Of a DNA stretch of 64,000 bases, positions 1,636 through 64,000 are shown piece after piece. The position numbers and the translations under genes were made by a program. The DNA is from Streptococcus pneumoniae (GTDB lineage Bacteria; Bacillota; Bacilli; Lactobacillales; Streptococcaceae). A model generated the notes under the pieces. It saw nothing but the letters and a program-made list of their open reading frames with translations, did not search any database and was not told the DNA's origin. Numbering within the stretch: the first letter of the stretch is position 1; each line of letters starts with the position of its first letter. The DNA lies in contig NZ_LN831051.1 in assembly GCF_001457635.1 (NCBI RefSeq), forward strand, positions 1,860,001-1,924,000. The letters are read 5' to 3'.

Positions 1636-1921
1636 ATACTCTTCGAAAATCTCTTCAAACCACGTCAGCGTCGCCCTACCGTATGTATGGTTACTGACTT
1701 CGTCAGTTTCATCTACAACCTCAAAACAGTGTTTTGAGCTGACTTCGTCAGTTTCATCTACAACCTCAAAACAGTGTTTTGAGCTGACTTCGTCAGTTTC
1801 ATCTACAACCTCAAAAACATGTTTTGAGCTGACTTCGTCAGTTCTATCTACAACCTCAAAGCAGTGCTTTGATCAACCCGCGGCTAGCTTCCTAGTTTGC
1901 TCTTTGATTTTCATTGAGTAT
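1636..1921. repeat. BOX element, boxA-(boxB)4-boxC
   Basis: This 286-bp repeat starts with ATACTCTTCGAAAATCTC and ends with TTTTCATTGAGTAT. It includes the sequence used for BOX-PCR (CGTCAGCGTCGCC...). The boxB unit (TCATCTACAACCTCAAAAC...) is present in four tandem 45-bp copies. The element is exactly 135 bp (3 x 45) longer than the single-boxB copy at 9629-9779. Later boxB copies are slightly diverged. It lies between the terminator of metG and the promoter of the PadR operon. Confidence 0.95.
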
Positions 1922-9628: not shown

Positions 9629-9779
9629 ATACTCAATGAAAATCAAAGAGCAAACTAGAAAGCTAGCCGCAGGCTGCTCAAAACACTGTTTTGAGGTTGT
9701 GGATGAAACTGACGAAGTCAGTAACCATACATACGGCAAGGCAAAGCTGACGCGGTTTGAAGAGATTTTCGAAGAGTAT
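9629..9779. repeat. BOX element, single boxB
   Basis: This 151-bp BOX runs from ATACTCAATGAAAATC to TTTTCGAAGAGTAT and contains the ACGGCAAGGC...GACGC core of boxA. It has one boxB unit, oriented opposite to the copy at 1636. Its last base is the first base of the (minus-strand) stop codon of the gene at 9779-9994. Confidence 0.95.
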
Positions 9780-23121: not shown

Positions 23122-24312
23122 TTATTTTACTGCTTCTTTCAAAGCATCTACCTTATCCAAACGTTCCCATGGAAGATCAATATCTGTACGTCCCATGTGA
23201 CCGTAAGCCGATGTTTGACGGTAAATTGGACGCTTGAGGTCCAGCATTTGGATAATCCCTGCAGGGCGAAGGTCAAAGATTTGACGAGCCGCTTTTTCAA
23301 GTTGACTTTCAGCTACTGTTCCTGTACCGAAAGTATCGATACGAACAGAAACAGGTTGCGCAACACCGATAGCATAGGCCAACTGCACTTCTGCCTTCTT
23401 AGCAAGGCCTGCTGCAACGATATTCTTGGCAATATAGCGAGCCGCATAAGAGGCTGAACGATCCACCTTAGTCGCATCTTTACCAGAGAAGGCACCACCA
23501 CCATGACGAGAGTAGCCACCATAAGTATCTACAATAATCTTACGACCAGTCAAACCTGAGTCCCCTTGAGGACCACCGATTACAAAACGACCTGTCGGAT
23601 TGATAAAGAATTTTGCCTTATCATCAAGATAAGAAGATGGAATAACTTCTTTGATGACCTTGTCAATCACATCTTGATGGATTTGTTCATTAGTGGCCTC
23701 TGGATCATGCTGAGTAGAAATAACGACTGTATCTACACGTACCGGACGGTCATTTTCATCGTACTCAACTGTAACTTGTGATTTTGCATCTGGACGGAGA
23801 TAGCTAATTTCTCCAGACTTACGAAGTTCTGCCAGACGACGAACCAATTTATGACTGAGTGCAATTGGCAATGGCATGAGCTCTTCTGTTTCATCTACTG
23901 CAAATCCAAACATGAGCCCTTGGTCACCTGCTCCAATCAAGTCCAGTGGATCTTGATCAGCATTTCCACGAACCTCCAAGGCTTCGTTAACACCTTGAGC
24001 GATGTCAGGAGATTGTTCCACCAAAGATGGGTGTACTCCCACCGTCTCAGCAGAAAATCCATATTCTGTATTGGTATAACCAATCTCTGCAATGGTATCA
24101 CGAACCACACGGTTAATATCCACATAGGCATTTGTAGAAATTTCACCAAAAACGTGGACAGAACCAGTATATACAGCTGTTTCAGCAGCAACGTGCGCCT
24201 CTGGATCCTTTGCTAAAATAGCATCCAAAATCGCATCTGAAATTTGGTCTGCAATCTTATCCGGATGCCCCTCAGATACAGATTCAGACGTGAATAATTT
24301 ACGTTCTGACAT
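23122..24312 (-). CDS. metK: S-adenosylmethionine synthetase
   Basis: MetK makes SAM from methionine and ATP. The 396-residue protein shows [13 protein letters not shown] near the N-terminus, [12 protein letters not shown] in the middle and [20 protein letters not shown], the ATP and methionine binding loops. Full length. The start codon is preceded by an unusually long Shine-Dalgarno (GGGGGGAC). Together with the upstream sequence this fits an SMK-box translational riboswitch, so expression is probably repressed by SAM. The leader carries an unusual insertion. Confidence 0.98.
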
Positions 24313-24319
24313 AAAAATG

Positions 24320-24586
24320 TCCCCCCTTAAAAAATATTGTTATAGAGTTACAAAGTACTGATAGGAATTTCCATTATCTAAGAGTTACTAGCTTCAGAAA
24401 TAAAAACGATACTTTTTTATTTCTGAAGCTAGTAAGGCGCATAGGGTGACCGCAGTATGGCGGCAACCGTAGAAAGACGAGCGACCTCGAAGCCGTCATT
24501 CTTTGCGAATTGCAAACTACTGATAGGAAAACTCTTCGTAATAAATACCTACCATCTTATCGGGACTATATAACTTTATCATTATA
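24320..24586 (-). promoter_or_regulatory. metK promoter and SMK-box (SAM-III) riboswitch, split by an insertion
   Basis: On the minus strand -10 TATAAT (24581-24586) lies about 7 nt before GTTATATAG (24566-24574), so transcription should start at the riboswitch. Recognisable parts follow. Anti-Shine-Dalgarno GTCCCG (24561-24566) is complementary to GGGGAC in the metK ribosome binding site (24318-24326). GATGGTAGG pairs by GGUAGG/CCUAUC with the CCTATCAGTA further on. TTTGTAACTCTATAAC pairs with the 5' strand GTTATA. This order matches the Enterococcus SMK box (GUUCCC-GAAAGGAUGGCGG-...-UUGUAAC-...-GGGGGAA). Between the apical helix and the 3' strand about 162 bp are inserted, flanked by 17-bp direct repeats (24351-24367 and 24513-24529). 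Assignment is by eye. Confidence 0.7.
24383..24436. repeat. Perfect long inverted repeat in the metK leader
   Basis: ACTAGCTTCAGAAATAAAAA is followed by a 7-nt spacer and its exact reverse complement, giving a 20-bp stem. It is the core of the extra segment in the metK leader. No T run follows on either strand, so it is not an ordinary terminator. It could fold as an independent hairpin inside the RNA. Confidence 0.85.
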
Positions 24587-24651
24587 CCATTTTTAATCGC
24601 AATTTGCAGTCTTTAATGTAGTGTTTCGGTTTAGATAGTTCGTTCTCATAA

Positions 24652-24681
24652 ATAAAAAAGTTGGAGCTCAGTACTCCAACA
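24652..24681 (-). terminator. Terminator of the DEAD-box helicase gene
   Basis: The minus-strand hairpin GTTGGAG-tactga-GCTCCAAC is followed by TTTTTTAT. Confidence 0.88.
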
Positions 24682-24688
24682 ATTTCTA

Positions 24689-26032
24689 TTAAAATGTTTG
24701 GCGTTTAGCTTTACGCTCTGCACGACCGCGAGCGCGATTTTCAGCACGCTTGGTTTTACGGCGCTTTTCATCAACCGCCCATTGAATTTTCTTCTTATAA
24801 CCCGGTTTGACTTTTTTCTTTTTCTTTTTAACCAAACCAATCATTTCGATATCAAGTTTATCTTGTTTTTTCTCACGGTTGGCACGACGATCACGGTCAT
24901 AGGTATCTTGAAATTCCCCGTCTTTGACCATCTTAGGACTAAACTTGATTCCCAATTTCTCCAACTCACGGATATCCGAGTCATCACTTGGCTGATAAAG
25001 GGTAATAGCTGTACCTGGTAGGCCATTTCGTCCAGTACGACCAACACGGTGAACAAAAAAAGATAAGTCTTGCGGAATGGCATCATTGATGACATGGCTG
25101 ACACCTTCAATGTCAATCCCACGTGCTGCCAAATCTGTTGCGACAATATACTCAAAATCCAGATTTTGCACCTGATTCATGATTCGCTTGCGTTCACGAG
25201 GGGCAATATCGCCATGGATTTTTGCAACCTTCAAGCCTTGAGCAGTCAGATATGAATGCAATTCATCAGCACGCGTTTTAGTGTTAACAAAAATCATTGC
25301 CAAATACGGCTGCATCGACTGAGTCAACTGGTAAATTTGAGCATTCTTATCATGTCCCTTGGTCGAAATCAACCAATTATCAATGGTGTCAGAAATAACC
25401 GTTTTGGTCTTAATTTTCTCCATAACAGGATTTGATAAGTATTTTTTCAAGAATGGTTGCAGTTTTTGTGGGATAGTCGCTGAGAAGACCATGAATTGCA
25501 AGTCTTTTGGAAGACTGTCAGCAATCTTATCAACAGTTTCCAAGAATCCCATATCCAAGGTCATATCTGCTTCATCAACAACAAATGTCTTGGCTTTATG
25601 AATAGCTAAATCACCAGATTTAACCAAGTCGTAGATACGGCCTGGTGTTCCAATAACAATATGAGGCTGATTGCTTTCCAATTTCTCAATCTGGCGAGCC
25701 TTATCCGTACCACCCACATAATTAACCACACGAACTTCGACATCTGAGTGAGCTGAAATCTGACGCGCTACTTGGTAAATTTGAGTAGCCAACTCACGAC
25801 TCGGTGCAGTAATCACTGCTTGTACACTATCGCTAGCTTCATCTAATTGCTGAAAAATCGGTAACAAGAAAGTATGAGTCTTACCTGAACCTGTTTTTGA
25901 TTCTCCTACTAGGTCACGACCTGCCAAAACAATAGGAATCAACTTGTCTTGCACCTCTGTTGGAGTTGTAAATTTTAACTCCTTCAAGGCTTCTCTAATA
26001 TAGTTTTTAAATTGAAATTTCGTAAATGACAT
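24689..26032 (-). CDS. DEAD-box ATP-dependent RNA helicase (CshB-like)
   Basis: This 447-residue protein has the complete DEAD-box set: Q motif FKNYIREALKEL...TPTEVQ, motif I SKTGSGKT, motif II VVDEADM, motif III FSATIP, and motif VI HRVGRTGRNG. The C-terminal ~90 residues are extremely basic (KKKKKKVKPGYKKK...KRAENRARGRAERK), a typical RNA-binding tail of CshB/YqfR-type helicases. It probably acts in rRNA maturation or cold-shock RNA unwinding. Monocistronic. Confidence 0.92.
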   Translation of the reverse strand: MSFTKFQFKNYIREALKELKFTTPTEVQDKLIPIVLAGRDLVGESKTGSGKTHTFLLPIFQQLDEASDSVQAVITAPSRELATQIYQVARQISAHSDVEVRVVNYVGGTDKARQIEKLESNQPHIVIGTPGRIYDLVKSGDLAIHKAKTFVVDEADMTLDMGFLETVDKIADSLPKDLQFMVFSATIPQKLQPFLKKYLSNPVMEKIKTKTVISDTIDNWLISTKGHDKNAQIYQLTQSMQPYLAMIFVNTKTRADELHSYLTAQGLKVAKIHGDIAPRERKRIMNQVQNLDFEYIVATDLAARGIDIEGVSHVINDAIPQDLSFFVHRVGRTGRNGLPGTAITLYQPSDDSDIRELEKLGIKFSPKMVKDGEFQDTYDRDRRANREKKQDKLDIEMIGLVKKKKKKVKPGYKKKIQWAVDEKRRKTKRAENRARGRAERKAKRQTF

Positions 26033-36664: not shown

Positions 36665-36814
36665 ATACTCAATGAAAATCAAAGAGCAAACTAGGAAACT
36701 AGCCGCAGGTTGCTCAAAGCACTGCTTTGAGGTTGTAGATAAGACTGACGAAGTCAGTCACATATATAATCCAAGGCGACGTTGACGCAGTTTGAAGAGA
36801 TTTTCGAAGAGTAT
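36665..36814. repeat. BOX element between livJ and livH
   Basis: A 150-bp BOX with one boxB, running ATACTCAATG...GAAGAGTAT. It sits inside the liv operon, between the binding-protein gene and the permease/ATPase genes. In RNA it would form a stable stem that could set the ratio of binding protein to transporter. Confidence 0.94.
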
Positions 36815-54180: not shown

Positions 54181-54295
54181 TAGAAATAATATTTTCTTCG
54201 AAAAATAGAATTTTAATCATTTGAAAAACGATTTGCAGTCAAATATTACTATATAAACAATAAAAATATGCTATACTAAAGAAAAAAGAAAACAA

Positions 54296-54384
54296 CCACT
54301 AGGGGTGCGTAAAGCTGAGATTAACGACTGTTAGATCCCTCTGACTCAATCTAGGTAATGCTAGCTGATGGAAGTGGAAATGAT
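54296..54384 (+). promoter_or_regulatory. TPP riboswitch upstream of thiD
   Basis: The THI-box elements are in order: CTAGGGGTGC, GCTGAGATTA, ATCCCTCTGACTCAATCTAGGTAATGCTAGC and TGGAAGTGG. This copy is diverged from the two other TPP riboswitches in the window. No strong terminator follows, so control may be translational. Confidence 0.93.
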
Positions 54385-54472
54385 AATGGGGACTAGCAGT
54401 CTTCTATTGCCTTTCTAAAACAGACTAGCTTGTTCTTAAGAATACAAACTTCAGTTGGTTGGGAGGTTTTAG

Positions 54473-55310: not shown

Positions 55311-55469
55311 ATACTCTTCGAAAATCTCTTCAAACTACGTCAGCTTCCATCTGCAACCTCAAAACACTGTTTTGAGCTGACTTCGTCAGTCTTATCTAAA
55401 ACCTCAAGGCAGTACTTTGAGCAACCTGCGACTAGCTTTCTAGTTTACTCTTTGATTTTCATTGAGTAT
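55311..55469. repeat. BOX element, boxA partly deleted
   Basis: This 159-bp element with BOX ends (ATACTCTTCG...TTGAGTAT) and about two boxB-like units lacks the middle of boxA (the GTCGCCTTGCCGTA region). It fills the gap between the thiD terminator and the thiE stop. Confidence 0.88.
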
Positions 55470-60955: not shown

Positions 60956-61002
60956 CAGCTTACAAGATTAGACAGTTCTTTTCGACATACGAAAAAAACA
61001 TT

Positions 61003-61076
61003 TCACATTTCCCTTCGCCAGTCTTAACTGTATCAGGTTCAATGGGTATCATCTCAGCCTAAAGCACCCCAAATGC
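61003..61076 (-). promoter_or_regulatory. TPP riboswitch of the ykoE-ecfA-ecfT-tenA-thiW-thiM-thiE operon
   Basis: On the minus strand: GGGGTGCTTTAGGCTGAGATG, ATACCCATTGAACCTGATACAG, and CTGGCGAAGGGAAATGTG. The order and conserved CUGAGA and ACCUGAU-like segments are those of the THI box. Confidence 0.95.
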
Positions 61077-61080
61077 CTTT

Positions 61081-61289
61081 ATTATTTAATTATGTGATTA
61101 TTATAACACACATTTTATACTAGTTCAAGAAATTGAACTGGAAATACAGCCTTGCACTCACAAAGACAGCAGATCTTTCTTTTGCAAAAAACAAATGACC
61201 TGTTTGATGAATTAGCCATTCAAGCTGAATCTAGACATAGCTTTTTAAAAAAGGAAAATCCTACTTACTTAGAATCCAAGGATAGATAT
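61081..61289. other. Spacer between thiE2 and the ykoE riboswitch
   Basis: I see no gene. A plus-strand frame at 61152 (MHSQRQQIFLLQKTN...) runs into thiE2 antisense and has no ribosome binding site. It may be a small remnant of an older gene. Confidence 0.4.
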
Positions 61290-62797: not shown

Positions 62798-62908
62798 ATA
62801 CTCAATGAAAATCAAAGAGCAAACTAGGAGGCTAACCGCAGGTTGCTCAAAACACTGTTTTGAGGTTGTGGATAGAACTGACGTGGTTTGAAGAGATTTT
62901 CGAAGAGT
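62798..62908. repeat. Short BOX element between tenA2 and thiM2
   Basis: A 111-bp BOX with boxC end (ATACTCAATGAAAATC) and a cut-down boxA (GACGTGGTTTGAAGAGATTTTCGAAGAGT). The central ACGAAGTCAG...CGACGC segment is missing, so it is a deletion derivative. It lies inside the tenA-thiM-thiE operon. Confidence 0.9.
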
Positions 62909-62945
62909 CTTACCTCATCAAATTTGTAAATATCATGAGCTTTCT

Positions 62946-63793: not shown

Positions 63794-63837
63794 GACTTAC
63801 AAGATTAGACCGTTCATTTCACCATACGAAAAAACTG

Positions 63838-63912
63838 TTCACATTTCCCTTCGCCAGTCTTAACTGTATCAGGTTCAATGGGTATTATCTCAGCCTAAAG
63901 CACCCCAAATGT
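63838..63912 (-). promoter_or_regulatory. TPP riboswitch of the tenA2-thiM2-thiE2 operon
   Basis: On the minus strand: GGGGTGCTTTAGGCTGAGATA, ATACCCATTGAACCTGATACAG, CTGGCGAAGGGAAATGTG. Almost identical to the copy at 61003-61076, including flanks and terminator, which points to duplication. Confidence 0.95.
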
Positions 63913-64000
63913 CTCTATTATTTAATTACTGAACCAGTATAGCAAAAAATGAAAGCCTTAGCAAGATATTTAACCGAAAAATATCTTTATATATAGTAGA

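Follow-up and report, generated by a model that had tools for sequence, protein, structure and literature searches.

The window, a 64,000-nucleotide stretch of a Streptococcus genome of 2,110,968 bases that looks like S. pneumoniae, carries on its minus strand an open frame for a SAM synthetase of 396 aa (23122..24312, ATG at 24312-24310), which we name metK from a reading of the protein and from a finding of the first-pass annotation. Directly before metK, as expected of an SMK box in Lactobacillales, the minus strand from 24574 to 24310 can be read directly as the parts of an SMK (SAM-III) riboswitch in order, and every element that the annotation had named is present in the order it gave. 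On the 5' side these are GUUAUA, the 5' strand of the SAM-free helix P0 (24569..24574); the anti-Shine-Dalgarno GUCCC, which is also the P1 5' strand (24562..24566); and the 5' side of the SMK core (24548..24558), made up of AAG (P2 5' strand), AU and GGUAGG (P3 5' strand, GGTAGG at 24553-24548). Nearer the gene, also on the minus strand, lie CCTATC, the P3 partner strand (24365-24360), the proximal 3' core AGTACTTTGTAAC (24359-24347), the P0 3' strand UAUAAC (24339..24344; direct reading, fold and conservation), which pairs with GUUAUA in an unconstrained fold, and GGGGGGAC (24319..24326), which comprises the Shine-Dalgarno sequence and the P1 3' strand (GGGAC at 24323-24319).

A large insert lies between the strands of the apical helix, as the first-pass annotation had described, bounded by 17-bp direct repeats (24513-24529 and 24351-24367) that differ at one base and stand 162 bp apart. 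These repeats sit within a longer 78% repeat and are two copies of the riboswitch's own 3' half. The distal one forms the first 17 bases of copy 1 of that half, UUCCUAUCAGUAGUUUGCAAUUC (24507..24529, minus strand), in which core positions are changed; the proximal one is contained in copy 2, which with the stretch before it reads AAUGGAAAUUCCUAUCAGUACUUUGUAACUC (24345..24375, minus strand) and includes the segment AGUACUUUGUAAC. Between them is one copy of a repeat unit of about 130 nt that we call R1 (24383..24513, minus strand), consisting of a three-way junction (P1, HP1, HP2), UUACUAG, a long hairpin HP3 and GUAAC, with HP3 a perfect 22-bp inverted repeat around a 7-nt spacer (24385..24435). 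The earlier description of a 162-bp insertion thus holds for the large interruption and fails for the simple block, as the 162 bp are an R1 unit of about 130 nt plus a duplicated piece of riboswitch; the annotation had foreseen neither a genus-wide repeat in the insert nor a duplicated riboswitch in the direct repeats.

The Rfam SMK model RF01767 found no match in the window at its gathering level, and none at E 10 in 24200-24800. At E <= 0.001, 61 of 147 Streptococcus genomes and none of 14 control genomes gave a full-length match; across the 147, no streptococcal match reached the gathering score of 45, which is a detection rule and not a biological property, and the best relative scored 39.7 bits. 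All 30 loci fetched contain metK (query: the first 60 residues of the window's metK), and in the aligned leaders the match extends to the metK start. In 23 leaders without the insert (alignment A4 leaves out L015, a duplicate, and L026, L027, L049 and L050), P0, P2 and P3 are paired in 97.0% of cells, and double changes occur at 7 of 15 pairs, in 26 cells against 6.6 after shuffling, a level that none of 500 shuffles reached; P3 is among the helices that covary. Because these relatives match RF01767 over its full length and their helices covary, the SMK homology of the window leader is settled. The claim of an SMK-type leader before metK therefore stands, and relatives devoid of an SMK-like fold, one of the outcomes that its author had named as damaging, were looked for and did not appear.

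Longer-loop leaders score lower with RF01767, sequence divergence contributing too: L001, L006, L013, L019, L047 and L049, with leaders of 86, 87, 89, 93, 103 and 129 nt, score 39.7, 38.1, 36.3, 34.8, 30.0 and 27.6 bits, respectively. The window leader, at 265 nt, is therefore likely beyond the reach of the model, and a scan with RF01767 overlooks the pneumococcal metK leader. RF01767 likewise failed to match three insert-bearing loci of other types (L043, L110 and L120) at E 0.5. In L049 and L050 a short stretch in the P3 loop resembles the tail of an R1 unit and, judged by its sequence, looks like a deletion scar. Elsewhere in the window, three TPP riboswitches over the gathering score lie within about 10 kb, at 54291-54389 (+), 60993-61081 (-) and 63829-63917 (-).

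Leaders were collected by their 5' core with up to 3 changes, and those bearing the insert were assigned to types from a reading of their 3' segments. Leaders of the pneumococcus/mitis/oralis type have the 3' half twice, one copy on each side of R1. The 5' core is intact in all 36 such leaders and the gene-proximal AGTACTTTGTAAC is exact in all 36, against 17 of 36 for the distal core (nominal Fisher p 1.5e-7, with related rows); the window leader belongs to the remaining 19, in which the distal copy is lost (11) or has small changes (8). These 36 leaders represent 34 different segment pairs (L071/L073 and L085/L089 share flanks), 15 of them with an exact distal core, and the proximal copy complements the 5' strand of L074 and L084 at all 14 nt tested. 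In the 12 leaders of the sanguinis type the distal copy is exact in 12/12, whereas neither the proximal copy nor UAUAAC is left. Since the sorting read the 3' segments and the collection used the 5' core, the proximal count of 36/36 holds partly by definition, as does the split into types; what remains unforced is the finding that 48/48 leaders of the two types keep at least one exact 3' core. This count leaves out L105 (runs of N) and takes same-flank leaders once except for L071/L073 and L085/L089. In a third type (five loci) the units are placed after a core with a longer P3, which did not fit the pattern and falls outside the scoring, and L117 has no 5' core within the 700 nt examined.

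We folded 27 of the 36 pneumococcal-type leaders, leaving out L094, L106, L042, L088, L089, L041, L076, L074 and L084, most of which hold tandem units. The fold of the window leader beats all 200 shuffles (z -5.29), with much of the energy coming from the insert's own hairpins. Without constraints, 16 of the 27 leaders pair P3 with the proximal copy across the insert, form P0 and leave the Shine-Dalgarno sequence free; in the other 11 the Shine-Dalgarno sequence is paired. For the window, a piece starting at 24576 gave the fold in which P3 pairs with the proximal copy, P0 forms and the ribosome binding site stays open, and a piece that included promoter bases gave a distal-copy fold with the Shine-Dalgarno sequence paired. 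The first-pass suggestion that the two copies of the 3' strand offer the apical helix alternative partners finds support, and ON and OFF states so evenly balanced would agree with the thermodynamic mode of switching that the available text of PMC6152003 gives for SMK.

In the 26 aligned insert-bearing leaders (alignment A3, the 27 folded leaders less L070), P0, with its 5' strand GUUAUA, P1 and P2 are invariant in 26/26, and GUCCC can pair with GGGAC (24319-24323 in the window) in every row. Because these helices never vary, what they demonstrate is conservation, not covariation. P3 and its extension with the proximal copy are paired in 88.8% of cells, with no covariation beyond shuffles in these 26 leaders; by the same counting the distal pairing lies slightly above shuffles, 13-15 of 500 of which came out as high.

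We assign a probability of about 0.75 to the reading of the metK leader as a still working SMK-type SAM switch with R1 in P3 and a duplicated 3' half. The window leader is very probably a real, interrupted and working SMK-type switch, and most likely R1 forms a side domain at the tip of its apical helix; we hold that it works because all 48 insert-bearing leaders keep one exact 3' core. In the proposed mechanism, P3 carries the R1 copy, which abuts the GUAAC strand of the SMK core. In the pneumococcus/mitis group the gene-proximal copy would pair with the 5' half across R1, leaving R1 to hang from the P3 tip as a self-folded side domain, and the window's distal copy would be a decaying remnant. 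At low SAM, P0 (GUUAUA:UAUAAC) would form and the ribosome binding site would be free; with SAM present, the anti-Shine-Dalgarno would pair with the ribosome binding site and metK translation would fall. The leader's anatomy, homology, conservation and predicted folds are what the analysis shows; SAM binding, the regulation of metK and the order of insertion and duplication are what we infer here.

The first-pass annotation had also considered that the insert disabled the switch, which would make metK constitutive and the parts relics. The silence of RF01767 in the window, the changed distal core and the possible local decoy hairpin with the distal copy would all suit such a loss, but 5' and proximal 3' cores that stay exact while distal ones are altered or lost, a complete core in every sanguinis-type leader, and the invariance of P0, P1 and P2 make it unlikely. 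The leaders form a natural series of one riboswitch, with the loop empty, remnant-like, or filled by one to four structured repeats of about 130 nt in two topologies, which allows a direct test of how large a load of folded RNA a single-domain riboswitch tolerates.

The R1 repeat family may be a larger finding than the switch. A DNA search with the insert gave matches in 81 of 284 Streptococcus genomes; all 51 genomes at E <= 9.3e-31 have the insert before metK, as do five with weaker matches (G114, G207, G239, G250 and G126), and tandem units occur there in G034 and G029 (three), G256 (four) and G094, G083, G311 and G323 (two). Weak matches away from metK led to a structural alignment of 20 R1 units, in which double changes are seen at 34 of 39 pairs, a number that none of 500 shuffles attained and that drops to 17-20 in slid controls, for a structure drawn from the same 20 sequences. 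A covariance model built from these rows, the window copy included, has a single window match at E <= 5 (24383-24513, 127.7 bits, model positions 1-133 of 133). R1 copies were found in 105 of 118 sampled Streptococcus genomes, seven of them in the window's genome, and in Streptococcus alone among 48 genera sampled in the order. Over 94 copies, in an alignment fitted to the model, double changes number 1397 cells against 403 after shuffling. A possible outer helix of R1, GUAA:UUAC, is 83.8% paired with no covariation.

The other copies in the window's genome are intergenic: they are located downstream of prfC, downstream of argS as a tandem, in the gap from grpE to dnaK, between two genes of lactose type and next to the gene for PNPase, all genes being named from a reading of their proteins. 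R1 has no Rfam family. The window copy gave sub-threshold hairpin matches only, mostly to miRNA models, which we rejected, and seven further R1 loci gave three sub-threshold matches, none overlapping R1. For the same lack of overlap we rejected SSRC8_2 as R1's family; its sub-threshold matches in the dnaK region (L254 1286-1392, L119 557-649, both on the minus strand) adjoin R1 copies. The literature searches, for which most subscription papers lay outside reach, brought up no description of R1, and boxD, boxE and boxF of S. suis are candidate equivalents of it.

On a metK tree of 94 leaders, drawn from a collection with one genome per species and built without L101 and L105 (too short) and duplicates, parsimony needs 14 gains or losses of the insert, a count that recombination at metK may inflate. 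Well-supported branches force 7 changes when the insert-free label is followed. The rows came partly from insert searches, and their frequencies are not population estimates. All 21 rows of the subclade of the window's genome carry the insert, the pneumococcal and sanguinis leader types fall in different clades, and R1 occurs at metK in 1 to 4 copies. Through the direct repeats the block could be lost precisely. One genome (G061) has two metK loci, L037 (C10) and L126 (C1), one with the insert and one without, reflecting either a real duplication or a mixed assembly.

The pairing of R1 leaves a different mark from that of the SMK helices. Non-Watson-Crick cells in the 94 copies number 65 G-U and 76 A-C (p 0.40), or 53 G-U and 41 A-C when HP3, with its less certain register, is set aside. 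In P3 of the SMK relatives the count is 9 G-U and 0 A-C, as expected of RNA. The R1 units at metK are mixed, with 8 G-U to 1 A-C in HP1 and 2 G-U to 7 A-C in HP2. Because there is no clear G-U preference over the family, the pairing looks kept partly on DNA, and these hints lead us to infer that it is maintained at least in part at that level, through recognition of folded DNA or template-switch correction of near-palindromes. The window's perfect 22-bp HP3 is common to L036, L064 and L107, with other rows ending the right arm differently, and looks like a product of template-switch correction. The near-equal G-U and A-C counts warn that strong covariation need not imply a functional RNA.

These counts bear on a second alternative, that R1 is a regulatory RNA domain used by the metK leader as an attenuator, a second sensor or a protein site. 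Its strong conserved fold, its presence throughout the 21-row subclade, the G-U excess in HP1 of the metK units and a weak terminator-like site of 5 pairs in HP1 (24495-24482) are what such a role would predict. We nevertheless consider it quite unlikely: the insert comes and goes on the tree, the copy number at metK is not fixed, most copies lie elsewhere, with random orientation to the upstream gene in G036 (18 same, 21 opposite in a 40-copy sample), A-C cells are as frequent as G-U over the family and outnumber them in the metK HP2, and no U-rich tail follows HP3.

One genome, G036, contains 53 R1 copies at E <= 1e-8. Among 40 sampled copies, 18 lie inside elements with both BOX-type ends. 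The window has five BOX elements with both ends, at 1636-1921 (+), which contains several tandem internal modules, 9629-9779 (-), 36665-36814 (-), 55311-55469 (+) and 62798-62910 (-), called with end motifs that we take to be those of BOX. Their ends are nearly identical to those around the G036 copies of R1, and for these two reasons R1 is most readily understood as one module of the mosaic repeats of streptococci. The metK locus (L033) and five other loci of the window's genome show neither boxA nor boxC ends. Another R1-bearing repeat type in G036 has GATACTTTC before the unit (L381, L383, L389, L391 and L392), and a further repeat, of GATAC...GTTCAA type, directly precedes the unit in L108, L113, L130, L132 and similar loci, apparently at a site common to several genomes.

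R1 often begins at GTAA or at a stop codon, the opposite strand reading TTAC. A stop-codon rule is not general: in the 40-copy sample of G036, only 1 of the 39 copies that have an upstream frame shows a same-strand stop within 8 nt. At the 3' end of prfC, very divergent R1-type units abut the stop codon in many of 30 loci (L325-L354), often in arrays, and a different palindromic repeat occupies this place in some of the others. In 94,451 bases around 30 Y1 transposase (PF01797) loci R1 has no match at E <= 1, and we dropped an IS200/IS605 origin because R1 is absent from these flanks; we also rejected a phage or plasmid origin, neither collection containing a match at E 1e-5. The flanking direct repeats and the dispersal of R1 could be accounted for by the plain insertion of a transposon or MITE that duplicated a 17-bp target, but this is very unlikely, as the repeats derive from the 3' half of the riboswitch itself and exceed 17 bp in relatives, the metK locus lacks BOX ends and the Y1 transposase flanks lack R1.

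As a broader and tentative proposal, which may well prove wrong, R1 could be an unrecognised Streptococcus-wide palindrome kept as folded DNA that lands at GTAA, including the GUAAC of the SMK core; the damage there would have been escaped through a duplicate 3' half borne on the array, and lineages would have kept one half or the other. If true, these leaders would be natural riboswitch alleles in which an array of 1 to 4 repeats occupies one of two topological positions.

Extragenic palindromes that occur in tandem or dispersed are familiar from REP/BIME repeats and IS200/IS605-related MITEs, and R1 resembles them in these respects and in how often R1-type units abut the stop codon of prfC. 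It differs in that no association with Y1 transposases was found and in its unit, a three-way junction plus hairpin. The leader itself resembles the SMK box of the Enterococcus faecalis metK (RF01767) in its position before metK, its pairing of anti-Shine-Dalgarno with Shine-Dalgarno, its P2/P3 core and its alternative P0 helix, a likeness that extends strand by strand. Fuchs, in the original SMK paper of 2006, reportedly described a variable, dispensable linker at the place of the P3 insert, so long linkers as such may be known already. The window leader departs from the SMK box in holding a repeat of about 130 nt in P3 and in the duplication of its 3' half; SMK is described in the available text of PMC6152003 as a single domain whose ON and OFF states have similar energy. 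BOX elements and the BOX-type families of S. suis, as far as the available text of PMC3049150 describes them, share with R1 a modular interspersed organisation, tandem modules and strong folds, and in the trp leader of the pneumococcus the same text describes a BOX element flanked by two T boxes. It also describes BOX, RUP and SPRITE as almost entirely absent from S. sanguinis, whereas R1 occurs in S. sanguinis 2908 (G104).
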